Source: Owenia fusiformis
Taxonomy: Eukaryota > Annelida > Polychaeta > Sabellida > Oweniidae
Assembly (NCBI GenBank): GCA_903813345.2
Contig: CAIIXF020000009.1
Coordinates: 38,683,759 to 38,747,758 of the forward strand
Reading direction: 5' to 3'
DNA length: 64,000 bases
Shown here: positions 3,853 through 62,204 of the stretch, piece after piece
How positions within the stretch are numbered: position 1 is the first letter of the stretch
How the letters are laid out: each line of letters starts with the position of its first letter
Made by a program: the position numbers and the translations under genes
Notes under the pieces: model-generated
The model's input: the letters and a program-made list of their open reading frames with translations, nothing else
Databases searched by the model: none
What the model was told of the DNA's origin: nothing

Positions 3853-4122
3853 TAGATATAGTCATAAAAATAATAGTTCATAAAATCAGTGATAACTATA
3901 AAATCTTAACTTAATTGTATATAAAAAAATTATATGAATTACATGAACTTGTGATCGAGACATATATACAGGTGTATATGGTTGACCACATCTAAACATT
4001 TTACATCAAAATCATTCATGACACTAGTTCATAAAATCAGTGATATGTAATAAAACCACTGGACAAGGAAACCATCAGATGGCAAAAAGGTTTCATAGAG
4101 AGACCATTAGTTTTTTATTATC

Positions 4123-4701
4123 TACAGGGTGGTCAAAATAAATGGAAACCCTGCATTTTCCTAATATCTTTATCATTTTAAGAAATTACTCCCTGATATT
4201 TCACACATTTGTACATCATTCAATTTCCTACCACCCTACCAAATTTCATGACCATCAGACTGATAGTCACAATTTTACAGCACTTTGAATAACATGCTTC
4301 AATTTTGGCCATCATCGCCCTGTAGGCAAACCTGCACAGTTGTCAATGGGCCGAATGCATTCCTCAGCAGGTATGGCCTGAATGATACGGATGATCTCAC
4401 TTTTTAGGTTTGTGATTGTCCTGAGGTCATTCTCATACACTTTTTCCTTGCCATAACCCTACAGGTAGGGACATTTTGGACAGGGAGTGCAGGTGGCCTG
4501 ACAGCACAATAGTGGCCACTAGGGCTGTTCTGTAAAGTGCTGTAACATTGTTAATATCAATTCGATGGTCATGAAATGAAGTAGGCTGGTAGGAAATTGA
4601 ATGATGTACAAATGTACAAAATATCAGGAAGTTATTTCTTAAAATGACAAATATATGAGGAAAATGGTGTAAGGGTTTCCATTTTTTTTGACCACCCTGT
4701 A
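4123..4701 (-). mobile_element. Tc1/mariner relic, copy 2 (within the tandem duplication)
   Basis: Same element as at 2075-2652, carried by the 2.05-kb duplication. A third, independent copy lies at 59234-59809 in the THA1 gene. Confidence 0.82.
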
Positions 4702-5140
4702 TTATTGATACAATAATGGCAATCATGAAATTGCTTTCCTTAGAGAGAGGGAGAGTCTTTAGTCTTCATCAACAAGTTTAGTAAACTTCCCTTTAAGCCT
4801 GTAAGTGGCTTTATAAGTTGTATGTATACTTACAACAACCATGTAGTATTAGCAAGGCTTATTCTATTCTTCCTTTAGCGAACTGCATAAGAGACAATTA
4901 ATTTGATAAAAGAGGCAGTCTAGAAAATATATATGGCGGGGAATGGCCTCATATGAGCTCCACTCAGCGCTACAAGCAGATTAATGAAGGACATTTCTGA
5001 GACACTCTTATTGCATCTTAAACTAAGTTTAATAGCATCATCTCTTATATGAAAACACTCTGCACAGTCCCAATATCTATCTACTTTCAAAGTAAAACAT
5101 CATATCTTAAAACTTATTTGATGTTTATAATGACATGATC

Positions 5141-5569
5141 AGGCAATCATAATAAACCAAAACTGTACAGCAAAGTGAGTTATGATGCCACAACATTCTG
5201 CAATCATAATAAACCAAAACTGTACTAACATGCAATCAGCAAAGTGAGTTATGATGCCACAACATTCTGCAATCATAATAAACCAAAACTGTACTAACAT
5301 GCAATCAGCAAAGTGAGTTATGATGCCAATACATTCTGCAATCATAATAAACCAAAACTGTACAAACATGCAATCAGCAAAGTGAGTTATGATGCCACAA
5401 CATTCTGCAATCATAATAAACCAAAACTGTACTAACATGCAATCAGCAAAGTGAGTTATGATGCCGCAACATTCTGCAATCATAATAAACCAAAACTGTA
5501 CTAACATGCAATCAGCAAAGTGAGTTATGATACCACAACATTCTGCAATCATAATAAACCAAAACTGTA
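5141..5569. repeat. 69-bp minisatellite, second array
   Basis: Same unit as at 3092, with starts at 5200, 5269, 5338, 5407, 5476 and 5545. It has about two more units than the first array, and then passes into unique DNA. The extra units show where the upstream duplication joined. Confidence 0.95.
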
Positions 5570-6734
5570 ACTTTTCGAATAACCTGGTAAATATCATTAC
5601 TCTGGTTTCATTCTAACTCTTAGAAAATCTTCATATTTCTCTATTCTTTCAAGTACAGACATTTTTTGATCTAACCTTTATCAAATAAAAGAGGAGAATA
5701 GCTTCCCCTTGTTCAAGATCTACATTAGAATGAACAGTCATTATATTATAATTTCTCCCCGTAGGTAGCTAACATCCAAACTTCCTTCATAGTATAGCCA
5801 TACTCTGAAGAGATCAGAAAAGTATTGCAAAATCCAGGATTAAGCAGTCATTTTGATTTATATTCCCGGGAAAATTTTAAACTTCTAGCACTTCTTGTAT
5901 ACACATAAATTACAAACTGAAAATAATTTACTGTTCTTCCTGAAAGATTGAATGTTTTTCCTTTATCAAAGCATAATATGCAGTAATGGTGTTATTAAAA
6001 GATATACAATTATACATTATATATAGGCCTAGTTTATTTGTTTAATTTCTATACAGTTTTTCTTTTTCAAAATATGCATGTATACTGCCAGTTTTGTCTC
6101 TATTGAAAACTTGTATTGTCCTCCTGGCTATTAAAACTTATAATTTTTTTACTTATCTATTCCTATAATTTGTTCAAAAGTGATTAAATAAAAGATGTTA
6201 CATATATAGAATTTAGATGGTTCTACAATTAAAAATTCTATTTTCTATTTTCTTCTGACCTGACCCAAAATTACCTGACCTGCATACTTTTTTTCTGACC
6301 TGACCCGAGCCATAAGATCTCAAAATTAACAAAAGTTCACAAGCACACTAAAAATGTGCTTTATACATGTTTTTTTGCAATAAAAGTGGCCAGACACACG
6401 GACTGATGGACAAGGGGCTTCACTATATCCCTACCGAACTTCGTTGGTTGGGATAATGATAGATATTAGTTAAGAGTTGAGTAAAATAAAACCTTCTTAT
6501 CAATGACAAATGCAAAATGTCAAATCAAAAAGACCTCTGAGCATTTGTCTATTTGATAAATTAACCTAATATTCAATCTCGACATGTTCAACAAAGCCAG
6601 AATTCAACAGCTATAAATCTGGTAGGATGTATGATACATTTGAAATAAAATATTGTGATAATCTTTACTAAACTACGGCAGTACTAAGGACCAACCAATA
6701 TACAGAGGTTATTTATTAGGAGGTTTTTGTTACA
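5570..6734. other. Intron DNA with a decayed interspersed repeat
   Basis: No gene seen. 5790-5860 (TATAGCCATACTCTGAAGAG and following) and 6391-6460 (GGGCTTCACTATATCCCTAC, TTGGGATAATGAT) match parts of the repeat at 30722-31486, so this may be a diverged and interrupted copy of it. Confidence 0.5.
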
Positions 6735-7090
6735 GGGTATATCTGAGGGAAATACAATATATCAACCCAAGGGACTGTAGGGATGTCCAACAAGGATGTC
6801 CAACTTATTGCATACTCATCTATTCCTTTTTTTATTTCTTCTTTTGCTTTCCTGAAGTTAATGTTTCGTTTTTCTCTATAGCCAGGATCTTTACTGAATA
6901 GCTTTCTCAATTTTGAATTTTGAATAATCTTCAGATTTCAGATTTCCTATTATGACATGACCATGGTCTTCATCCTTAAATTCAAATGTTTTACAATTGC
7001 ATTCTCCTGTACTGTTGCCTTCATCGATGCTTTCTGTAATCTCACTATAGTTGAATAATTTATTAATTATTGGCTTTGTGTATATAGTTA
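6735..7090 (-). pseudogene. Retroelement-type coding fragment, frameshifted
   Basis: On the minus strand one frame reads CKTFEFKDEDHGHVIIGNLK and a second frame takes over with IIQNSKLRKLFSKDPGYREK and RNINFRKAKEEIKKGIDEYA. The motifs HGHVITGNL, KLRKL..KGP.YRE and NIN.. resemble a region I associate with reverse-transcriptase-bearing mobile elements of invertebrates; I cannot name the clade. A 7-bp duplication (AATCTGA repeated, about 6934-6948) shifts the frame. The upstream side runs into the 20-bp minisatellite. Decayed mobile-element remnant, moderate confidence. Confidence 0.5.
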
Positions 7091-7895
7091 GTTTGTTAGT
7101 TAGCATGCTTGTTTGTTTATTTGCGTGCTTGTTTGTTAATTAGCATGTTTGTTTGTTTGTTAGCATGCTTATTTGGTAGTTAGCATGCTTGTTTGGTAGT
7201 TAGCATGTTTGTTTGTTTGTTAGCATGCTTATTTGGTAGTTAGCATGCTTGTTTGGTAGTTAGCATGCTTGTTTGTTAGTTAGCATGCATGTTTGTTAGT
7301 TAGCATGCATGTTTGTTAGTTAGCATACGTGTTTGTTAGTTAGCATGCTTGTTTGTTAGTTAGCATGCTTGTTTGTTAGTTAGCATGCTTGTTTGTTAAT
7401 TAGCATGCATATTTGTTAGTTAGCATGCATGTTTGTTAGTTAGCATGCATGTTTGTTAGTTAGCATGCTTGTTTGTTAGTTAGCATGCTTGTTTGTTAAT
7501 AATTAGCATGTTTGTTAGTTAGCATGCATGTTTGTTAGTTAGCATGCTTGTTTGTTAATTAGCGTGCTTGTTTGTTAATTAGCGTGCTTGTTTGTTAGTT
7601 AGCATGCATGTTTGTTAGTTAGCATGCTTGTTTGTTAGTTAGCATGCTTGTTTGTTAATAATTAGCATGTTTGTTAGTTAGCATGCTTGTTTGTTAATTA
7701 GCATGCGTATTTGTTAGTTAGCATGCATGTTTGTTAGTTAGCATGCGTGTTTGTTAGTTAGCATGCTTGTTTGTTAGTTAGCATGCATGTTTGTTAGTTA
7801 GCATGCATGTTTGTTAGTTAGCATGCATGTTTGTTAGTTAGCATGCTTGTTTGTTAATTAGCATGCTTGTTTGTTAGTTAGCAGGCTTGTTTGTT
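7084..7895. repeat. 20-bp minisatellite, about 40 copies
   Basis: Unit GTTAGTTAGCATGCTTGTTT with variants (GCATGCATG, AATTAGCGTG, a shortened AATAATTAGCATG unit). The palindrome GCATGC recurs once per unit. Blocks of several units repeat in the same order, indicating duplication of longer segments (for example the AATAATTAGCATGTTTG variant at 7497 and 7656). Confidence 0.95.
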
Positions 7896-8666
7896 TGTGT
7901 GAGTGTTCAACATTGAGATAAAATGATACACATGTACATAGTTGGAAGCATCATGAATTGTCTCCTAAAGGAGAAGCCCTCATTATGATAACTCTCCTTT
8001 GAGAACATTAGAAGCATAGATTTCTGCAAGGCATAATGCAACCATCCAAACTGATCATACCTCTGCTATTTTTAAAGTAAGATAAACTTTGAACAAGTTA
8101 ACATTCAAGGTATTTACCAGAATGTAAATATCCAGATAATTGCTGATAAAAGTTTGTAAATCTAGAATTCACCTTCAGGAGTCACAGTTCCCATTAGATA
8201 AACTCTTCTTAAATAAAACTATGTTCTGAAGCATCTTAAAAATTAAACAATATTATTCATACAAATATCACACCATATACATTAGTACTAATAAAGGATG
8301 TTATGTTTTGGCTCCAATTGCAATTTTGTTGAAATCTGAATGTAATTTTTGCCAAAATGACCGAATATGCAGGATATCTCACTACGTCTGACATAAAGTA
8401 ATATGGTAATTGATATCTTCACCTTTATGCTTTTGAATAATACAAGTACATGTAGAAGTAGAAGTATTCAATCAATATTATGATGTAATACTGCAAGAGC
8501 TTTAAATATTTTGAAATCCTAGATTTTATTTTTGTTAAGTCCTGAAAGTTCATGAATGATGTGGCAATGAAGCTAACAATTATATATCTAGCTTTCAAAC
8601 TTAAGTTATAATCAAGAAAAAAAAAAAAACTCCTCGAAGTAGCAAATCCCACTGAACAAAACATAT
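7896..8666. other. Intron DNA without recognised gene
   Basis: AT-rich. The only recognisable piece is GTAGCAAATCCCACTGAACA near 8638, matching the left end of the repeat at 30722-31486. Confidence 0.5.
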
Positions 8667-9011
8667 TTAAAGGTGCAATTCAACGATCATGGACCAGTAT
8701 CAAAATATATACAAGTTTGGATATTTCCTGAAGACTAACATATATTTTTATTATCTCCTAAGAAACCCCCTGAATGAACATTATTTCAGCTGATATTTCT
8801 CTTGAAATGTGGTGGATCTTAAAAATCTATAAGTGGGACTCCCTTTATAGAAGCTTTGAACTGAGTTTACACTTCTGAAATTCATAGTTTATCCATACAT
8901 TTTAAGAAAATAGGTATGTCAAAGAAGATGTTAAGCTAAATGTTGCCTTGATGGCTCAGAAAAAGTAAAAAAATTCTAATTTTCTCTCTACAGGCCTTGT
9001 TACCCCTTTAA
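8667..9011. mobile_element. TTAA-flanked MITE, copy 1
   Basis: Bounded by TTAA (8667-8670 and 9008-9011), with inverted ends TTAAAGGTGCAA and the complement of TTAAAGGGGTAA. An inverted-orientation copy about as long lies at 25629-26000. The TTAA target suggests a piggyBac-type source. Confidence 0.75.
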
Positions 9012-50712: not shown

Positions 50713-52012
50713 TATACCCTGGGTCAACACTGATCATGATCATTATACTGTACCCCGGGTCGACACTTCACTTCTCAATATGATCATTGCACTGTACCTG
50801 GGTCGAGATTATAGTTTCCATTATAACCATTATACTGTACCCTGGGTCGACACTTCAGTTTCCAATATAATCATTATACTGTACCCCTGGTCGACACTTC
50901 ACTTCTTAATATGATCATTGCACTGTACCCGGGTCGACATTATAGTTTCCATTATAATCATTATACTGTACCCCATGTCAACACTTCAATTTCCAATATA
51001 ATCATTATACTGTATCCTGGGTCAACATTATAGTTTCCATTATAATCATTATACTGTACCCTGGGTAGACACTTCAGTTTCCAGCATAATCATTACATTA
51101 TACTCCGGGTCGACACTTCAGTTTCCATTATAACCATTATATACTGTACCCCGGGTCAACCCTTCAGTTTTCAATATAATCATTATACTGTACCCTGGGT
51201 CAACACTTCAGTTTCCAATATGATCATTATACTGAACCCCGGGTCGACACTTCAGTTTCCAATATAATCATTATACTGCACCTCGGGTCGACACTTTAGT
51301 TTCAAATATAATCAATATACTGTACCCCGGGTCGACACTTCAGTTTTCAATATGATTATTATACTGTACCCTTGGTAGACACTTCAGTTTCCAGCGTAAT
51401 CATTACACTGTACCCCGGGTCAACACTTCAGTTTCCAATATAATCATTATACTGTACCCCTGGTTGACATTATAGTTTCCATTATAATCATCATACTGTA
51501 CCCCAGGTCGAAGCTTCAGTTTCCAATATAATCATTATACTGTACCCTGGGTTGACATTATAGTTTCCATTATAATCATCATACTGTACCCTGGGTCAAT
51601 ACTTCAGTTTCCAATACAATCATTATACTGTACCCCGGGTTGACATTATAGTTTCCATTATAATCATCGAACTGTACCCTGGGTCGATACTTGGGTTTCC
51701 AATATAATCATTATGCTGTACCCCAGGTCAACACTTCAGTTTCCAATATAATCATTATACTGTACCCTGGGTCGACACTTCAGTTTCCAGCATAATCATT
51801 ATACTGTACCCCAGGTCAACACTTCAGTTTCCAATATAATCATTATACTGTACCCTGGGTCGACACTTCAGTTTCCAGCATAATCATTATACTATACCCC
51901 AGGTCGACACTTCAGTTTCAAATATAATCAATATACTGTACCCCGGGTCGACGCTTCACTTCCCAATATGATGATTATACTGTACCCCTGGTCGAAGCTT
52001 CAGTTTCAAAAA
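50713..52012. repeat. 44-bp minisatellite, about 29 copies, next to the THA1 start
   Basis: Period 44 is measured directly (for example CATTATACTG at 51181 and CATTAT at 51225). Each unit carries TACCCYGGGTCGACAC, then CAGTTTCCAATATAATC. Two subtypes mix, one with ACTTCAGTTTCCA and one with ATTATAGTTTCCA. GTCGAC and CCCGGG palindromes recur in many units. Copies are imperfect, so the array is not freshly expanded. Confidence 0.92.
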
Positions 52013-52274
52013 TAATCTTGGTTTAAGAAGAATGCGAAATGTAGCGACGAACGAGTACACGGCACACATCTGCAAAGCATGGTGGATGTTTTGTGAGGGC
52101 CAAAGACTCGTTTTATTTTAAAGGTTCAAATTTAATGAATACTAAAATTGTTAAACTTTTACAATTTACCTTCAGGTTTGGAGCAAGTCAGGACTTCAAA
52201 CTTGCTGTATGTGCATTAACAGATGTACAAGTGAACTCCTCGGGTACTTACTATCTTTACTAAACTTAGGTAAA

Positions 52275-52551
52275 ATGGCTAGCCACAGCCTTAAAAAATG
52301 CATACTGCATACAAGAAAACTTTTCCACAGAGCACAAGATGGTTTCTACCAAAGAACAATAACAAAATATGGATGTATTGAAAACACAAAAGTCCTAAAT
52401 TATCATGGCACACCTAAAGGTTTTATAGATGGTGCCAAAGTAATTGATCTACGTAGTGACACAGTGACACAGCCTAGTGATGCAATGAGGGAGGCTATGG
52501 CCAGTGCTAAGTGTGGAGATGATGTCTACAATGAGGACCCTACTGTCAATG
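52275..52551 (+). CDS. THA1: L-threonine aldolase exon 1
   Basis: Encodes residues 1-92 and the first base of codon 93, ending at G before GTACAG (phase 1). Residues 1-30 are basic and rich in His/Ser/Leu without acidic clusters, beginning [20 protein letters not shown], consistent with a mitochondrial targeting peptide (inference). The catalytic domain begins at about residue 56 with [13 protein letters not shown], the canonical opening of the family, followed by [23 protein letters not shown] at 52166-52175 looks like a splice acceptor, so an upstream 5'UTR exon is possible. Confidence 0.93.
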
Positions 52552-55500
52552 GTACAGTATCATATTATGTTATGGTTGATAAATGAATATCCATGTACTA
52601 AAGGTACTATTTGGTATCAAGTGTATGGATATAATGAGGTGATTTGAATGGTACTCATAACATACACACATTCAGTACTTTAACAGTCAACATAGTGTTC
52701 TATTGTATTTCTAGAATGATTTAATCAGAGATTTTTTAAAAGTGTGCAAATATTATATTCAATTCCTTTATTTTCATTTTGACTTTTTGATATGAACTAG
52801 TGTAAAGACTCAATTAGTGCATCATAATATATTCACACATCACGGAACTAGGCAATGTATGTCCGATTCCAGCCAATCCAAATGCAGTATATCATTTAAC
52901 TGCAGTGCACCATATAACATATCACCTACCCAAAGTGACAGTTATTCCTTGAAAGGTTGTCAAGGTGACAACTTGTCTCTACAGTTTGAAATTGATGCTT
53001 TGCCAACTTTGACAACCCTTGCAAAAAGTTTCATTTAAAATATGATCTTTTAGTGATTTTGTGTATTTTAAGTGACATGGTAGAAAATATCTTGCAATGT
53101 GTGAAAAGAATTTAAGTCCAAGACTCAGTGCATTGTGGAATGACCATTCCTTTTAGACATTGTTTATTAGCAATCGAAGCTGCGCATCTTGTGCAAAGTT
53201 TGGAAAGCAACACCTTCAAGGAATGGTCATTCTACATTGCATTGAGTCCAGGGCTTAGCTCCTTAAATATATTATACACAATACAACACTAGAGACCTTC
53301 ACATTGGAAAAAGATTCATGTACAGGTTTTACTATCTCCAATGACCCGAATCATAAAACTGTTATCCAAAAGATAATGTCTTCTCTGTGTTTTAGAGTTG
53401 CAGAGAAAATGTGCAGAAATGTTTGGAAAAGAGGCAGCATTATTTGTTCCAACAGGGACTATGGGAAACCTTATATCAGGTAGAATATCAATCAATTGTC
53501 AGAATTGTTGTGCATTCAGAAAATTTAAACATTTATTTGAAAATCTAAAACATTGATGTCATTGAGGGAAGTTCATATTTTGTGACCCTCTATAGTCTAT
53601 ATTAATTTTTTAATTACTTTATACATGTACCTTACATATACATGTAAGTGTAAATGTTCAGTATAAAGAAACACAAAATCTGGTTTTGTTGGAGTGAACA
53701 ATGAAATTATGTTTTCACATGTTCTATTGTAGTTATGACCCACTGTCAAGGCAGAGGGCAAGAGCTTATATGTGGGGACAAATCACATGTGTTCTTGTAT
53801 GAGCAGGGAGGGGTAGCACATGTAAGTTCTGTTCAGTCCAGTATATTTTACATTTAGCATATAGTTTTCATCAAGCCCTTGTTTTCCACTTTTGTTTAAT
53901 TTACGTGTCAGAGAGAATGAATGGACATGGGCCATATACAAGACTATTCCATAATACAAGTATTACCAAGAGGAGGGCCCCAGAGTTTAAAGATGACAGA
54001 CATAATTACGTCTCTTGCTTACCACCTTCGTTTGTTCGAATTTTCATCGGCTAGTTTTCAAATACTACACTTCGATGGGATGTTTTAATTGAATGATATA
54101 GCCATATTCCATACACCTTTCTTTATCGTGATGTGAAATGAGATATGATATTGGTTAACATGCCAGAAATGAACTAATATTATTCGAAGCATATTTTGAA
54201 AATTTTGAAACCGCCATTGATGACGTCATTTGTTTGTCGACTTTTGAAAATTCAGCGACGATGTCATCTCAATACAGATTGACATTATAAGCGTATGTCA
54301 TCTTTGAACCCTGGTGTTTCTCCCCCTCTGAGTATTACCATATTGCAGGAAAAATCAAAATTAGCTCTTATATTATTTTTTGCTAACATGTGCATTAGTT
54401 GCATTTGCATATTTCAGCAATTATTGTTTCAGACTTAATTTCAAATTTAATTTTTTGTGTTTTAATATTATAGTAAGCTTTTTATGTCATCACCAAAAGT
54501 GGTGACATATTGTTACGATCTCCGTTTTTTGTTACGGCAGGTGGCGGTCACTGTCTGTGACAAATTCTTACAACTTCCAATAACTTAACAAATACTGTTT
54601 AGACTGACTTCAAATTTTTTCGAAATCATCTACAAGTTCTCAGAAATTGAAATCTGACTCAAGATTTGAGATTTGACCTTCAACAACCTTCTCAAGGTCA
54701 AAAAATGTATTTTTTCAACTTGCGATTGACAGTCGGCGTCTGTAACAAATTCTTCCAATAACTTAACAAATACTGTTTAGACTGACTACAGTTTCCCAGA
54801 AATTAAAATCTGACTTTAGATTTGACCTTTAGTGACCTTCTCAAGGTCAAAAAGGTCTTTTTAACTTGCTTCAAATTGACCAATTACTTTCAAAATCATC
54901 TACATATTCTCAGAACTTCAAATCTAACTTTAGATTTAAGATTTGACATGCAATGGCCTTCTCAATGTAAAAAAGGTCAAAAAGGTATTTTTCAACTTAG
55001 CTTCAAACTGACCAATGTTTTTCAAAATCATCTGCAAGTTCTCAGAAGTTCAAATCTACTTTAAATTTAAGCCTTTACCTTCAATGACCTTCTCGAGGTA
55101 AAATAGGTATTTTCTCAACTTGCCTTAAATTGTCCAATTTTTCTTTTCAAAATCATCTACATGTTCTCAGAAGTTCACAACTTTTAACCTAAGATTTAAG
55201 ATTTGACATTCAATGACCTTCTCAAGATAAAAATTTCAAAAAGGAATTTTTTCAACTTGCCTTAAATTGACCAATTTTTGTCTTCAAAATCATCTACAAG
55301 TTCAAATCTGACTTAAGATTGAACTTATAATATTGTGAGCAACTAGGTGGTGACATTTTGTCATGTTAAAGCCTTGTTATTTGTTGCAATTAACACATGA
55401 CTATGATTTCTCCAGAGAACTGAATGCAGTCTTCATTTGGTTATTGCATGATATTATAAACTGTTTCATGATTGTTCTCTACAGCTTGCAGGGATCAACC

Positions 55501-58500
55501 CATGCCTTGTACCAAACCAACCAGATGGTACTATCAATGTAGACCAACTCCAGGCTCAAGTGAGGGGGGTGGATGTTCATTACCCTGTCACTAAACTGAT
55601 ATGTTTAGAGAACACACACAATTTCTGTGGGGGAAAGGTGTTACCAATGGCTTACTTGGAGAAGGTATAGCTCAATGCTACTAGTCTGCATTTAGAAATA
55701 ACATGGGGGAATTGATCTCATCTCAGATCACAGAGGAATATACATTGATTCTAATATACAATGATGATAACCCTGTATCCAAAACCACCACGTTCAAAAC
55801 CCTTTCTATGCATCAGCTTTGTTACTTCTTTTTTTTACACACCAATGCATGCTCTTGATTTTTGACTATTGTATTTTTTTAATTTATTGCTTTCTAAAGT
55901 AAGATATTTAGTTAATATTTTGTTCATTTGTTAAAAAATAAGAACATCTTTTTAGTCTCAAATGTCTTTAAACTGACTTTGATGCCCTTAATAATTGATT
56001 CAATGGTTTTTATTAACGAGTTTGAATAAAATACATTACATACTTTTAAAATTGGAAAGCACCAAGGGCAACATATAAAAACACTTTACAATAAAACATA
56101 ACAACAAAAACAAGAAAAAATTCTAGGTGTACTGAATCAAATTCACTTGCAGGTAGGTCATGTTCTTGCAAACACAATAGCCAATAATAAGGATGGTACA
56201 TTTGATCTAAACAAGCTACATGGTAAGATAAAAGGTGTGAAAAAGAAGCGAATACACGAGTGCCTACCAACTCTAATATGCATAGAAAATACACATGCTG
56301 CATGTGGTGGATCAGTTTTACCCATGTTGTTTCTAAAACAGGTACATATGTCTGTTCTTATATATGATATAGTTAAACTGTAAATCCTGTCTATCCAAAC
56401 AACTCTCTGATTTGAACACCTTTAAAGTCAAGAGGGGCGAAACCAACTTCTTTTGCGCAAATTCTCACCAGCTAGTTACAAAAATAACACTTCGTTGTGA
56501 TGTAAGCATATTCATTACACCTTTCTTTATCTTGATCCAAAATAACAAGCTATGATATATGCCAAAAATTAACATGATATTATTTGAAGCCTGTTTCGAA
56601 AATTTTGAAACTGCTATTGTTTGTCTGTCGATTTGACCAATCAGGGCGATATGTCTTCTCAATACATATTTACATGACAGACATATGTCTTCTTTGAACC
56701 CTGGGATTATCCCCGCCTGTTTCAAATCTCAATGTGAGAACTCTTTCTCAGTCACCTTTTGGCCAGTTTCCAGTGGCATTTAGAGGAGACATGCCTATTC
56801 CCATTCCCACTGGAGAAAAATAAAGGACCCACGGTCCTGTGTTCACACAGTTTGGAACCTTCAGAGGAATGTATATCCTGACTTTCAAACAAAAATATTG
56901 ATTTGGATTTGTAGTCTCGAACTTTGAGAAACTTAGATAGCACAGTTGTATGACCTAGTTTGATGACCTTTGACCTTGAAAATTCTACTTATTCAGATAG
57001 TAAGGTCTTTTGTGACTAAGTTCACCAAAATTTACATCCAAAAATCAACTTTTTTTTACCTTTCGAAGGTCACTGAAGGTCAATTAAAGGTCAAATCCTA
57101 AAACTGATGTCAGATTTGAACTCCTGGCAACTTGTAGATGATTTCCCCAAAAATTTGGTCAAATTGAAGCAAGTTGAAAAATAAATTATTTCTACTGTTT
57201 TTTGACGTCAAATATCTCAGAAACTGTAAGAATTTGATGCTGACATATATTGAGCAATATGTAGGTAATGCTTAAATCTAGTAATGATATAATTCATTGC
57301 AAGAAATGATCAAGTATAAGGCAAACTTTGAGAAACTTGTCAATCACAAAATCTGCCATTGACTTTATACATGAGAAAGTTTCCTGAAGATGACGAAGTC
57401 CTACTTTTTGTAAAATTTTTTAGAGTAAACACCAAAAACTGTAATTCCAAGAGCTTTGAAATCTTCAGAGGACATAAGTTGCATATACAGCAACTACTAC
57501 AAGTTATTTGAAAGTTCTACTTCAACAAAGTGTCTAGTATTTACAGAAAATTTGACTTTTTGACGTCAAAATCAGCAATTTCTCGGAAACCGGGTGAACT
57601 TGGGAAATGGCGATGATAGGTCAAATAGGCATTATGGATATGCATAAAATGAATGTGGATATTATGACTCAATCCGAAAAGCAGTTTTAATTTGTGCAGC
57701 CAATGTTGACGGATGGACAGATGGACGGATGGACCAATGGACGGATGGACGCCTGGTCGATCCCATAGGCTCACTGTGTGAGCCAAAGACAGTTTAGACT
57801 TATTTTCTCCTGGAAGAAGTTGTTATTTGCTGATACAAATTTTTGTGGATTATGTTGTGACCTTCTCTATTGGGCAGTGGATACTAATACATTGTATTTC
57901 CTGCAGATGTGTTGTGTACAGGTGTAGCCACATGGCTATTGAAGTCTATTTAGTGATTAACATTTGTTTAGGTTGAGAGTATAGCCAGAGAGAATGATGT
58001 TAAGATTCATATGGATGGTGCAAGAGTCCTTAATGCTGCTACAGCTCTTGACATCCCTGTGGCTGACATAGTGAAACATGCTGACTCTGTGAGCATGTGC
58101 TTTTCAAAGGTAAAAAATTAGAAATTCTAATGATCTACTAATTTAGCAATTTAGTACCCAAATAATGTCATAACATAACTATTTTTCAATAAAGTATTTC
58201 CAGCCAAAAGCAACAAACATTTCTGTTTATTTACAGGGTGTCCAAAAAAAACAGGACCGTAAGAAAGTTGAATAACTCGGTCAATTTTGCATATTTTTCC
58301 TTGAGATTTCAGAATTATTTAGTCCATTCAATGTGAATTTTGTTGTGAAAGTTTGATAATAATCTACCAATTGAGTCAAAAGCTACAGCTCCTTACAAAA
58401 CATGCCCCAAATGTGCAAATCTCATCTCTATGCACAATTCAATCCGGCAAACAAAGCTGTTGATGATCCTCCTACACACATGTCTTTCTGAATGGACAAG

Positions 58501-61500
58501 TTTGTTCCAAGAACAATTGCTACTGGGGCTTACATCCTCCTGATGAAGTGTTACATCATCCATTGCATTCTGAACAATGCACTCCCTGGGTGGTAATGAG
58601 GAAACATGGAATCATCAGTCCCTTTTGGTTCGAATGTGACTGGGGACTTGCTATCACCATGAACAAGGACCAGTAAGTTCTCACCAAGTTTTGGAGGTCA
58701 CTAAGCACCGGAAGGGACATTTAAGAAGATAATTAAGCAGTGGTTTCAACAAGCCAATACCACCCCAACACTGCAAATGATATGCTGAAATGGTTTAGGC
58801 AATGCTTTGGTGGTCAGCTCATCAGTTGCAGAACGCAAACCATATGGGCAGCTCATTCACCTGATCTAAATCCCCCAAGTTTTCATCTTTGAGGATTTCT
58901 CAAAGCGAATGTGTATACTGACAGGCCCCTAACAATCTTAAGAGGGCAATACCTACCCCAATGTTTACCATTCACATTAATGTGTATAGGTAAGGGTCAT
59001 TAACAACTTTGTTCGTAGGATTCGTTTGTGCATAGAGAGGAGAAGTGCCCACTTTGAGCATGTTTTGTAAAGGACTGTAGTTTTTGACAAAATAAACAGA
59101 TTATCATCAAACTTTCAGAACAAAATTCACATTGAATGAACTAAATAATTCTCAAATTTCAAGGCAAAATATGCAAAATTGACCGAGTTATTCAACTTTC
59201 TTACGGTCCTGTTTTTTTTGGACACCCTGTACATACAGGGTGGTAAAAAAATGGAAACCCTAATACCATTTTTCTTATAACTTTGTCATTTTAAGAAATA
59301 ACTCACTGATATTTTGGACTTTTGTACATCATTCAATTTGCTACCAGCCTACTTTATTTCATCACCATCAGCTTGATAGTCACAATGTTACAGTACTTTA
59401 AAGAACATGTCCCAGTGGCCACTATTGCCCTGTCGGGAAACCTGTACTCATCATCTAAAATGTCCCTACCTGTGGGGATACAGCAGAGATAGAGTATATG
59501 AGAATGACCTCAGGACAATTTCAAACCTCAAAAGTGAGATCATTCATGTCATTCAGGCCATACCTGCTGAGGAATGCATTCGGGTCATTGACAACTCTGC
59601 TGTTTTGCCTACAGCTCGATGATGGCCAAATCTGAAGCATGTTATTCAAAGTGCTGTAAAATTGTGACTATCAGTCTGATGGTCATGAAATATGGTAGGG
59701 TGGTAGGAAATTGAATGATGTACAAATGTGTGAAATATCAAGGAGTAATTTTCTAAAGTAACAAAGATATAAGGAAAATGCAGGGTTTCCATTTTTTGAC
59801 CACCCTGTATTAGCAAACATCATCATGATCATATATGTTGTGCTGTAATTTTAAATTGAATGTGATTTACTGCGAGTTACTTTTGATTTACAGGGACTAG
59901 GTGCACCAGTTGGATCTATTATGGCAGGGACAGAACAGTTTGTAAATATGTATGTTTATTATTATTGATAATTAAATAATAAGAATGGCAGCAAGGAGAA
60001 GAGAGTTGGAACCTTATTTTCGGAAAAAGAATGGAATGTACTAAAAACCCTTCAACATTTGACATGCACCTATGACTTTCAACTTACTTGGTACGGATGT
60101 CAAGAATCTTTTGGAATGTATTTTAATAAAAACTCTAATAAGTGATTGGTTTTATGTATAACATTTATTTATAATATTTGATTTGACGCCGCTTGTGGCA
60201 TTGTGTCTAGAGTCACTGTGTATGACAGTTCTATCTTTTCCTTGTAGGCACAAAGGTATGGATAGTGTGTCCAAAGGGGTGAAGGTTTTTTATTAAAATA
60301 CACTCCAAAAATTTCTTGACAACCAGTAGGTCTTAGGTTGAAGAGTTTTTAGTACATTCCAAAATGAATTGAGAATTCTGATCAAATAAAATAGTTATTA
60401 GATTTAAGATGCAGAAATTTAAGTACCTTAATAGTCAAAGGGTTTCTTTGAAGTAAGGAAAGAATAGTGGGAAATGTGACAGCAAAATGTGATAATGAGA
60501 TTCAATTTGATTGGATGATTGAAACAAATCACCTTTCTGACCATTTGTAGATTTTTTTGTTGATGTTTTATTTATTCATCAATATCATATAAACCATCGG
60601 CTTTCAAGTTAAAAGCCCATGTATAAACGTATATATCAAAGATTGAGATGAAACATAAGTATTTTACTTCATTTCAATCTTCATCTCTAGGGTTTGCAAA
60701 AAAGATCGACCCCACCGACCAGTCGGTTTTTTGAAACACTGCCAACTTATCGCATCCTACGACCCCTTTAGATTGTGGTCGTATGCGCGTATAATTGGGC
60801 AGTCAATGTTTTTACAAAGTATGAGAAAATACTACGCATTGCACACCTAAATGACCTACCTCTATACATTCCTTAGTATTTTAGAATTCTTTTTATGTTG
60901 TTAGATCGCCAATTGTATGGGTTTATCGGCAGAACGAAGAGATTTTAGTTTTTACATCGGAAATATATCAGCAATTTTCAAAATGTCGGAAGGGGAATTC
61001 CCCAGGGATTTCCCTTATGACTGGTGCATGCCGGGAACTGAATGGAGGAATTTGACGGTTGAAATAAGTTAAATATTACACGCAAATATTGCTATCAAAA
61101 ACGAAAACCTCTTCGTTCTGCCGATAAACCCACACAATTGTGGATTCAACTACACGAAAAGAATGGTAAAATACCAAGGAATCTATTGAAATAGGTATCT
61201 TAAGTGTAAGAAGCGTAGAAAATTCTCCCATGTTGTAATCGTACAGACAAAAGAATGAGACGTTCGCAAGACTAGAACGTAGAGATAGTCTTGGAACGAG
61301 ATAAACTGCCAACCTAACGTTTCTGATAACGTTTCTAATAAAATGATTTGTTTTTGTCAGACTGATTACTGAACAAACACAATGTAATCAAAGAAGCACG
61401 ATCAACATAGTCACTGCATGTGTTCATTTTCTCTGCGAATAAACAGCTTTTCAGTTAAAAAATAAATTTTGTGAAAACATTGAAATTTCTTGTAAAAATG

Positions 61501-62204
61501 ACCTTCTCCGCCACATCATCCAAATTAGTCGTGAATTTGCACCAATCCATCATTAGATAAAAGACCGATCGCCATCCAGTAACCATGTGTACCCAACTGT
61601 GGAGAGTGACTGATTGGTGGTCTTTTGGTCTTTTTTGTAAACCTCATCTCTTGTTTTAATGATATTTAAAAAGCTAATAGAGAATTAAATGCTACAAATA
61701 AATTCACAACATATAACTCAGGCCCGTAGCCAGGGGGGGTTCGCAGGGTTCGGGCGACCCCCCCCTGGCCAAAAATTCTTTCAAAATCATGCAGTTTTTC
61801 ACCATTTCGAGCACTTCTCTTGTGATTTTAGCCATATTTGGGCCAAAATTGTCAAATGTGAACCCCCCCCTGGAAATTTTTGAAAACTGAACCCCCCCCT
61901 GGCAAATCCTGGCTACGGGCCTGTAACTTATATATATCTGTAATCTGATTGGTGCAGTGTGAGCGCCCTATACACCAATCACATGACAGATAGGTAAGCT
62001 AATGTCTGCTTCCATATAGTGAAAACTTGAGTGGATAGAATACCTGAATACTATTGAATGTCTTTAGGGCTCTTCGTATTCGCAAGATGCTTGGGGGTGG
62101 CATGCGACAGGTGGCAGTACTAGCTGCTCCAGCCCTAGTAGCATTAGAGGAGTCAATCCCCAAACTGGCAGATGATCATAAACATGCACGTATCATTGCA
62201 AGAG
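52275..62204 (+). CDS. THA1: L-threonine aldolase gene (8 coding exons seen, one in two versions; 3' end outside)
   Basis: The gene encodes a PLP-dependent (fold type I) low-specificity L-threonine aldolase, which cleaves threonine or allo-threonine to glycine and acetaldehyde. Coding exons are 52275-52551, 53396-53479, 53733-53821, then 55485-55664 or 56153-56341, then 57972-58109, 59894-59949 and 62068-62204, all with GT-AG borders and compatible phases. Family landmarks in order: [35 protein letters not shown], a PTGTMGNLI block, THCQGRG with the histidine expected to stack on [29 protein letters not shown] with the cofactor-binding Asp and Arg, and [12 protein letters not shown] with the Schiff-base Lys at the exon 6/7 border. 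About 320 residues are covered; the usual length of about 340-400 implies roughly 30-80 residues lie beyond the window. The start at 52275 (AAAATGG) opens a basic N-terminus that could be a mitochondrial presequence; an in-frame ATG at 52209 would add 22 residues. Confidence 0.95.
53112..53266. mobile_element. Small hairpin MITE in THA1 intron 1
   Basis: TTAAGTCCAAGACTCAGTGC and AATGACCATTCCTT at the left face near-complements at the right, ending TTAA at 53263-53266. About 35-bp arms. Confidence 0.72.
53396..53479 (+). CDS. THA1: L-threonine aldolase exon 2
   Basis: Starts after TTTTAG and ends before GTAGAA; phase 1 at both ends. Encodes [20 protein letters not shown] and TMGNLIS (residues 93-120 with the split Glu codon). 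The PTGTMGN segment forms part of the PLP phosphate-binding region in this family. Confidence 0.94.
53733..53821 (+). CDS. THA1: L-threonine aldolase exon 3
   Basis: Starts after TTGTAG and ends with CAT before GTAAGT; phase 1 to phase 0. Encodes [12 protein letters not shown] and then [18 protein letters not shown] (residues 121-150). The His of the THC motif aligns with the conserved histidine that stacks over the PLP ring in characterised L-threonine aldolases. Confidence 0.94.
53975..54330. mobile_element. MITE in THA1 intron 3
   Basis: CCAGAGTTTAAAGATGACA at the left faces the complement of CCAGGGTTCAAAGATGACA at the right. A related copy in the same orientation lies at 56428-56712 (shared CACCTTTCTTTATC and TTTTGAAAATTTTGAAAC). 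Confidence 0.7.
54478..55375. repeat. GTGACATA-hairpin repeat family, copy 1
   Basis: Opens with GTCATCACCAAAAGTGGTGACATATTG (hairpin CACCAAAAGTGGTG) and closes with GGTGGTGACATTTTGTCATG. The interior is 130-160-bp degenerate units with TCAAAATCATCTACA.GTTCT, CAGAA.TTCAAATCTGAC and TGACCTTCTCAAGGTC. Copy 3 begins at 62702; an inverted, end-less copy lies at 56950-57230. Confidence 0.8.
55485..55664 (+). CDS. THA1: L-threonine aldolase exon 4a (alternative version)
   Basis: Starts after CTACAG and ends with AAG before GTATAG; exactly 60 codons, phase 0 at both ends. Encodes [20 protein letters not shown], a variable linker, then [20 protein letters not shown] and YLEK. The LENTHN..GGKVLP block is a family signature close to the active site. 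This version is nearer to the family consensus than exon 4b, keeping Asn after ENTH and Lys before VLP. It has the same length class and the same phases as the exon 488 bp downstream. Confidence 0.92.
56153..56341 (+). CDS. THA1: L-threonine aldolase exon 4b (diverged duplicate, probably mutually exclusive with 4a)
   Basis: Starts after CTTGCAG and ends with CAG before GTACAT; 63 codons, phase 0 at both ends, no stop. Encodes [20 protein letters not shown], a basic [10 protein letters not shown] stretch, then [18 protein letters not shown] and LFLKQ. It aligns along its whole length with exon 4a (about 23 identical residues of 60, with three extra residues in the KKKR region). Asn after ENTH becomes Ala and Lys before VLP becomes Ser. 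Including both exons would repeat one structural segment, so an either/or choice is inferred. An intact frame and splice sites after such divergence argue against a dead copy. Confidence 0.85.
56428..56712. mobile_element. MITE in THA1 intron after exon 4b
   Basis: Second, diverged copy of the element at 53975-54330, ending GTCTTCTTTGAACCCTGG. Confidence 0.65.
56930..57790. repeat. GTGACATA-type repeat interior, inverted, with GGAC microsatellite
   Basis: GACCTTTGACCTTGAAAATT, CAGATTTGAACTCC and CAAATTGAAGCAAGTTGAAA match the reverse complement of the units at 54590 and 62950. At the right end, 57708-57750 is a degenerate GGACGGAT array, followed by CATAGGCTCACTGTGTGAGCC. Confidence 0.65.
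57972..58109 (+). CDS. THA1: L-threonine aldolase exon 5 (PLP-binding)
   Basis: Starts after TTTAG and ends with AAG before GTAAAA; 46 codons, phase 0 at both ends. Encodes [20 protein letters not shown], the segment [18 protein letters not shown], and SVSMCFSK. Asp and Arg of HMDGAR are the family's PLP pyridine-nitrogen contact and neighbouring conserved residue; the last Lys is the one expected to form the internal aldimine. Confidence 0.95.
58232..59231 (+). mobile_element. 1-kb Tc1/mariner-type transposon relic in THA1 intron 5
   Basis: TA-flanked, ends TACAGGGTGTCCAAAAAAA and its complement, inverted for about 150 bp. The plus strand contains disrupted frames reading [13 protein letters not shown]-like and [20 protein letters not shown] then [16 protein letters not shown] and TDRPLTI. 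W..HSPDLNP..F.LWG.LK..VY is the C-terminal catalytic signature of Tc1/mariner transposases. Several stops and frame changes mean it is dead. Confidence 0.85.
59234..59809 (+). mobile_element. Tc1/mariner relic abutting the previous one
   Basis: TA-flanked, ends TACAGGGTGGTAAAAAAATG and the complement of TACAGGGTGGTC. The plus frame 59407-59622 reads [40 protein letters not shown], a transposase C-terminus. Same family as 2075-2652. Only two bases separate it from the neighbouring element. Confidence 0.85.
59894..59949 (+). CDS. THA1: L-threonine aldolase exon 6
   Basis: A 56-nt exon after TTTACAG encoding [18 protein letters not shown] plus two bases of a Met codon, ending before GTATGT (phase 2). 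GLGAPVGS directly follows the PLP lysine in all family members. It sits 84 bp after a Tc1/mariner relic. Confidence 0.94.
60031..60360. mobile_element. Small inverted-repeat element in THA1 intron 6
   Basis: GGAATGTACTAAAAACCCTT at 60033 faces AAGAGTTTTTAGTACATTCC ending at 60360. About 25-bp arms around 275 bp; borders uncertain. Confidence 0.6.
60689..61643. mobile_element. hAT-like foldback element, 955 bp, with 8-bp target duplication
   Basis: TCATCTCT occurs at both edges (60681-60688 and 61644-61651). Ends AGGGTTTGCAAAAAAGA and the complement of GGTTTACAAAAAAGA. Internally, arms of about 125 bp (60832-60962 against 61085-61225) pair, including GGGTTTATCGGCAGAACGAA. No transposase. Confidence 0.83.
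61719..61923. mobile_element. 205-bp MITE with perfect 16-bp ends and C/G runs
   Basis: CAGGCCCGTAGCCAGG at the left and its exact complement at the right, flanked by TAACT on both sides (61714-61718, 61924-61928). AACCCCCCCCTGG motifs recur inside. A half copy is seen near 10537. Confidence 0.82.
62068..62204 (+). CDS. THA1: L-threonine aldolase exon 7 (last one in the window)
   Basis: Starts after TCTTTAG with the third base of the split Met codon and ends AGA G before GTCTGA (phase 1). Encodes [20 protein letters not shown], then [20 protein letters not shown] and RIIAR. The [13 protein letters not shown] block is the expected continuation of the family. The remaining C-terminal exon or exons are not in the window; 62205-64000 holds only repeats. 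Confidence 0.93.

Follow-up and report, generated by a model that had tools for sequence, protein, structure and literature searches.

Two diverged tandem versions of exon 4, probably mutually exclusive, in the L-threonine aldolase gene of Owenia fusiformis

To our knowledge, few animal metabolic enzymes have their substrate set by splicing rather than by gene duplication. The clearest of those considered here is coq-2. Its exons 6a and 6e are reported to be mutually exclusive in helminths, annelids and molluscs, and both are 134 nucleotides (nt) long in C. elegans, where the choice between them decides whether ubiquinone or rhodoquinone is synthesized (PMC7434440). Exon 10 of the oyster AOX gene is a duplicated tandem exon in a lophotrochozoan mitochondrial enzyme, with one copy conserved and the other displaying new residues around functional sites (PMC5589949). 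The gene described here encodes a predicted L-threonine aldolase (LTA) in Owenia fusiformis and has two diverged versions of its exon 4, termed 4a and 4b. By analogy with coq-2 these are probably mutually exclusive, and the LTA pair would then join the cases of substrate choice set by splicing. The locus is found in a window of 64,000 nt, C9:38,683,759–38,747,758, and the genome searched comprises 498 Mb (C1–C12 of 32–62 Mb each and C13 of 0.66 Mb).

Exon 4a is at window positions 55485–55664 and encodes 60 amino acids (aa) with a net charge of −1. Exon 4b is at positions 56153–56341 and encodes 63 aa with a net charge of +5; both are on the forward strand. The initial annotation described them as two frame-compatible versions of one LTA segment, and the coordinates, the 0/0 phases, the open frames and the AG/GT borders are as it gave them. 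The 23 of 60 residues said to be shared are likewise found on alignment of 4a with 4b. The Smith-Waterman score of this pair is 127 (5000 shuffles give a mean of 22.7, a standard deviation of 4.5 and a maximum of 52), and the tblastn E-value is approximately 5e-13 in a 72-kb stretch. None of the other eight LTA exons is duplicated within these 72 kb, where the remaining tblastn matches have E-values of 0.025 or worse. As expected of a mutually exclusive pair, 4a and 4b are adjacent, homologous and of the same phase, and each is an in-frame substitute for the other. The predicted protein has 417 residues with 4a (isoform A), 420 with 4b (isoform B), 480 with both and 357 with neither.

Comparison of the two sequences shows that they arose when LTA exon 4 was duplicated in tandem long ago. 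An assembly or allele artefact is rejected. The 4a and 4b protein sequences match only this pair in the 498-Mb genome, plus one match with an E-value of 5 that contains a stop, and alleles would not differ so much as to leave 38% identity. Also rejected is the origin of 4b from another LTA gene, as the remaining PF01212 (Pfam) loci, in a search that could overlook weak matches, are tryptophanase-like. The genome searches gave no retrocopy of the LTA gene that might stand in as a fossil transcript, and a scan with 4b found no relatives in viral contigs.

Like coq-2, the LTA locus is a metabolic enzyme gene in which an internal exon is present in two diverged tandem versions; these change the core of the enzyme, and one copy is family-like and the other specialized. 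The two cases differ in enzyme and fold. Also, both the splicing and the substrate switch have been demonstrated for coq-2 in C. elegans (PMC7434440), and for the LTA pair both are predictions from sequence. The oyster AOX case differs in that it consists of 3′ alternative splicing of a terminal exon, and in that the expression of both variants has been measured and responds to air exposure (PMC5589949). Mouse Tha1 is of the same enzyme family as the gene described here. The mouse gene has seven exons, and the word “alternative” does not appear in the main text of the paper that describes it (PMC555945). The open-licence library searched contains no paper that pairs “threonine aldolase” with “mutually exclusive exon”, in keeping with the initial annotation, which knew of no such exons in this enzyme; nor does it contain a paper where “mutually exclusive exons” is found together with “Owenia”.

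Over their whole length, isoforms A and B score 348.3 and 332.2 bits against PF01212 (Beta_elim_lyase; cut-off 27), and the single exons 4a and 4b score 50.9 and 38.4 bits. Against NCBIfam NF041359 (GntG family aldolase; cut-off 230) the isoforms score 444.5 and 414.7. The best solved relative of both is mouse LTA, 8pum, with about 370 residues aligned (348 bits for A, 331 for B); 8PUM and 8PUS are the structures deposited with the work on mouse Tha1 (PMC11016064). Three other PF01212 loci are present in the 498-Mb genome and are tryptophanase-like by NCBIfam, thus LTA appears to be single-copy here, as far as can be told from searches in which weak matches could be overlooked.

The conservation of exon 4 was assessed by counting column invariance on 27 rows, i.e. 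25 loci together with mouse and T. maritima. For these loci 57 genomes of one phylum were searched, of which 39 gave matches and the best 25 were used. A further 30 homologue loci were found in part with the pattern ENTHNFCG, which overstates that motif, and for this reason invariance was counted on the other 27 rows. The homologue rows total 57, with one gene entered twice (L032 and L063). In exon 4, nine columns reach an invariance of at least 85%; all nine are kept by 4b and eight by 4a. Both exons also retain the equivalents of T. maritima His125 and of mouse Gly149, the latter being the Gly whose change to Arg abolishes the activity of Arabidopsis THA1 (PMC555945). Differences between 4a and 4b at codon positions 1, 2 and 3 number 32, 16 and 41 of 60 (first vs second position, Fisher p = 0.005), and the third positions are close to saturation. 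A neutral simulation was started from 4a with substitutions only, indels and change on the 4a branch being left out. At 0.45 substitutions per site the mean identity is 23.7/60, the probability of an open frame is 0.08 and that of an open frame with eight core residues, over 200,000 runs, is 6e-5. The last value is 1.1e-3 at 0.3, 5e-6 at 0.6 and 0/200,000 at 0.9 substitutions per site. It is well supported by these comparisons that both copies are under selection to encode a working LTA segment. The segment tree places 4a and 4b as sisters with weak support (0.50), with branch lengths of 0.33 for 4a and 1.13 for 4b, i.e. about 3.5 times longer. Of the 57 homologue rows, 54 are more similar to 4a than to 4b (the median identities being 40% for 4a and 32% for 4b), and 4a is thus taken as the family-like copy and 4b as the specialized copy.

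A COQ2-type (UbiA-family) tandem exon pair is also present in this genome, at L071 4590–4720 and 8220–8353 (C2, approximately 21.739 and 21.742 Mb). Its exons are 131 and 134 nt long, 22/44 residues are identical and the codon-position differences are 18/10/24. In the LTA pair these differences rank in the same order and run somewhat deeper. Both COQ2-type exons match NCBIfam 4-hydroxybenzoate octaprenyltransferase at profile positions 140–184 with 49 and 51 bits, which, for fragments, is far below the whole-protein cut-off. The C2 pair is equated with the coq-2 exons by gene family, profile position and length rather than by direct alignment to a published exon. If it does represent the coq-2 mutually exclusive exons, this suggests that the animal is able to make rhodoquinone.

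Counted along the alignments, exon 4 corresponds to T. maritima residues 95–153 and mouse residues 135–196. It begins past mouse His123 and Tyr127 and stops ahead of Asp211 and Arg214 of the DGAR motif, which binds pyridoxal phosphate (PLP). In alignments with T. maritima and mouse, the catalytic lysine, the DGAR Asp and Arg and the PLP-stacking His are all in shared exons (residue roles are from PMC555945). The His125 equivalent is the sole tested catalytic or substrate residue outside of them, and it is present in both 4a and 4b, in each case 13 residues before the His of ENTH. The mouse enzyme differs in having Tyr168 where both 4a and 4b have His. For T. maritima, His125 (Tyr168 in mouse) has been predicted to come from a second subunit and bind the hydroxyl of the substrate (PMC555945), and one of the residues that bind substrate in mouse Tha1 is Tyr168 of another chain, chain C (PMC11016064). 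In the Aeromonas LTA, His128 at this same site is postulated to govern specificity and Asp126 is a member of an active-site hydrogen-bond network; changes at these two sites alter activity or specificity of bacterial LTAs, and the exchanged segment is thereby tied to LTA specificity by mutagenesis (PMC4761611). The alignment bears out the claim that the two versions differ close to the active site; it places the exchanged segment at the substrate-contacting His125 site.

By HMMER, the residue opposite Aeromonas Asp126 is the D of D-V-H in 4a and the R of R-I-H in 4b, with a three-residue insertion just before it. The loop D-V-H-Y of 4a is K-K-K-R-I-H-E in 4b. The mouse enzyme also carries extra residues in the loop before the His125 site, so that loop length is variable in the family. 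The “KKKR” insertion of the initial annotation is present as a basic insertion; its net size, however, is three residues. The two substitutions it placed beside ENTH fare differently: the N-to-A change affects a moderately conserved position (N in 78% of the 27 rows, Ser in mouse), while the K-to-S change is at a freely varying position. The more telling differences, judged from the aligned residues, appear to be the basic insertion and, next to it, the change of Asp to Arg at the second residue ahead of the His125 equivalent, which are stronger than those beside ENTH.

The favoured explanation, with a probability of roughly 0.7, is that exon 4 of LTA underwent an old tandem duplication, that both copies have been constrained, that transcripts carry one or the other, and that isoform B is retuned in its substrate choice. 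A transcript would most likely include either 4a or 4b and give rise to the 417-aa or the 420-aa isoform. Isoform A would be an ordinary LTA and isoform B would have a re-charged pocket edge, the exchanged segment being predicted to carry the residue (His125 in T. maritima, Tyr168 in mouse) that reaches from one subunit into the substrate site of a second. Since the charge is reversed around the His125 equivalent, isoform B would be expected to prefer other beta-hydroxy amino acids or a different stereoisomer. More speculatively, it could have a lower affinity for cationic substrates, e.g. hydroxytrimethyllysine (HTML), and a higher affinity for neutral or anionic ones. Mixed A/B tetramers would be possible. 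The two isoforms represent a natural experiment that is open to direct expression and assay.

HTML is an intermediate of the carnitine pathway with a cationic side chain. Mouse Tha1 prefers it about 1000-fold over threonine, the E. coli LTA makes good use of both L-allo-threonine and HTML, and LTA has recently been proposed for a missing step of carnitine synthesis (PMC11016064). HTML is probably made in O. fusiformis, because a gene for trimethyllysine dioxygenase (346 bits, cut-off 268) is present in the genome along with butyrobetaine-dioxygenase-like exons, none of which alone is above the whole-protein cut-off. These exons form clusters at C10 26.956–26.980 Mb, C10 34.526–34.563 Mb and C8 8.365–8.367 Mb, which suggests several carnitine-related dioxygenase genes. 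A tentative and rather doubtful extension is that exon choice lets the one LTA gene yield two aldolases of different substrate. The first would serve carnitine synthesis by acting on HTML, the second would act on threonine or an anionic beta-hydroxy amino acid, and the switch would lie in a loop whose key residue works in the active site of a neighbouring subunit.

The use of one exon per transcript is suggested by protein logic together with the coq-2 precedent. As to mechanism, mutual exclusion enforced by the reading frame is unsupported, the lengths of 4a and 4b both being 0 mod 3, and the 488-nt intron that separates them is judged too long for simple steric blocking. The best predicted pairing of this intron with the following intron is −39.4 kcal/mol (15 shuffles: mean −33.1, minimum −36.0), and with intron 3 it is −33.6 kcal/mol (shuffles: mean −30.9, minimum −34.5), each value being from one species.

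Several observations weigh against exclusive use of the two exons or against a retuned isoform B. The coq-2 exons are 2 mod 3 and their double inclusion breaks the frame, unlike the LTA exons; all four inclusion patterns of 4a and 4b keep the frame, and faulty splicing would therefore escape nonsense-mediated decay. Exon 4b is without the Gly at mouse position 137 (81% in the 27 rows), where the active Aeromonas enzyme has Ser, and without the Thr of P-x-T (78%) and the Asn after ENTH (78%). Isoform B falls just under the cut-off of 312 for the NCBIfam low-specificity LTA equivalog with 308.0, while isoform A passes with 328.9, and B is thus possibly a poor enzyme. The D126A change in Aeromonas lowers efficiency only about twofold (PMC4761611), and gap placement before the His is ambiguous: opposite the Asp, MAFFT sets K and HMMER sets R. 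The HTML argument derives from the mouse enzyme.

Some of these same observations bear on the main rival, an unlikely one, in which 4b is used but gives a subunit with little or no catalytic activity, by which the tetramer is dampened in a regulatory or dominant-negative manner. The charge reversal beside the substrate His, the loss of several mostly conserved residues, the score of B just under the NCBIfam cut-off and the longer 4b branch (1.13 vs 0.33) all fit such a subunit, as does an active site assembled across subunits (PMC11016064). Retention of all nine invariant columns and of the His125 and Gly149 equivalents is, however, beyond the needs of a structural dummy, and the PLP and lysine residues are in the shared exons. 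It is distinctly improbable that 4b is an extra cassette exon joined to 4a in a 480-aa protein, or that both exons are freely optional. Although the frame is open with both exons and neither the frame nor the intron-pairing scan revealed a clear lock that would keep the two out of one transcript, a core segment would be repeated in such a protein, and none of the 57 homologue rows, two of which are the same gene, displays a repeated exon-4 segment. Exon 4b also retains the residues needed to replace 4a.

Hardly any weight is given to the remaining alternative, that 4b is a decaying, unused relic of the exon duplication. It is the faster-evolving copy and its pyrimidine tract is weaker (53%, vs 71% in 4a), but four other LTA exons have 53% or 59%. 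The 63 stop-free codons, the AG/GT borders, a length divisible by three and a core kept at 41/60 third-position differences argue against decay, as does the simulated probability of about 1e-3 or less with indels left uncounted. A relic is very unlikely because 4b keeps 9/9 invariant columns, His125 and the Gly in spite of near-saturated third positions, which neutral decay almost never does.

The exon pair is flanked by two alignable copies of a repeat, at window positions approximately 54020–54330, before 4a, and 56435–56720, after 4b; both copies have the same orientation. The first copy is a dispersed repeat with many genomic copies that are 93%–94% identical (40 places scored of 1829 first-look candidates). 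The flanking repeats are for this reason rejected as the cause of the exon duplication, and separate insertions are likelier.

The LTA gene model is deduced from the DNA letters only. All exons are on the forward strand and every exon border is GT-AG. Exon 1 (coding part from the ATG, 52275–52551) has a K/R-rich N-terminus, possibly a mitochondrial leader, to judge from the mouse protein (PMC555945). Exon 2 (53396–53479) is followed by exon 3 (53733–53821), which ends in phase 0 and includes the residues that correspond to the PLP-stacking His and the ligand-contacting Tyr (mouse His123 and Tyr127). Exon 5 (57972–58109) starts in phase 0, contains the DGAR motif and ends at the catalytic lysine (CFSK). 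Exons 6 (59894–59949) and 7 (62068–62204) are also within the window; exons 8 and 9 (64611–64732 and 66171–66341 in window numbering) are past its end, in L004.

The tryptophanase-like genes are at L001 1588–2415 (C5) and at L002 1100–1900 and L003 1171–1971 (C6, minus strand). Their partial frames are above the NCBIfam tryptophanase subfamily cut-off and below the equivalog cut-offs. Horizontal transfer is a possible source of such genes in an animal genome.

A 44-bp tandem array of 29 copies (window 50739–52017) ends 258 bases upstream of the LTA start codon and could affect the promoter. The intron after exon 5 has two abutting elements with inverted ends, at 58228–59235 and 59233–59810 (277-nt arms, 82%; 29-nt arms, 97%, plus 143-nt arms, 83%), which look like DNA transposons or foldback elements. 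By eye, there is a tandem array between exons 8 and 9 (L004, approximately 1440–2360) and a longer one downstream of the gene (L004, approximately 3900–8701).

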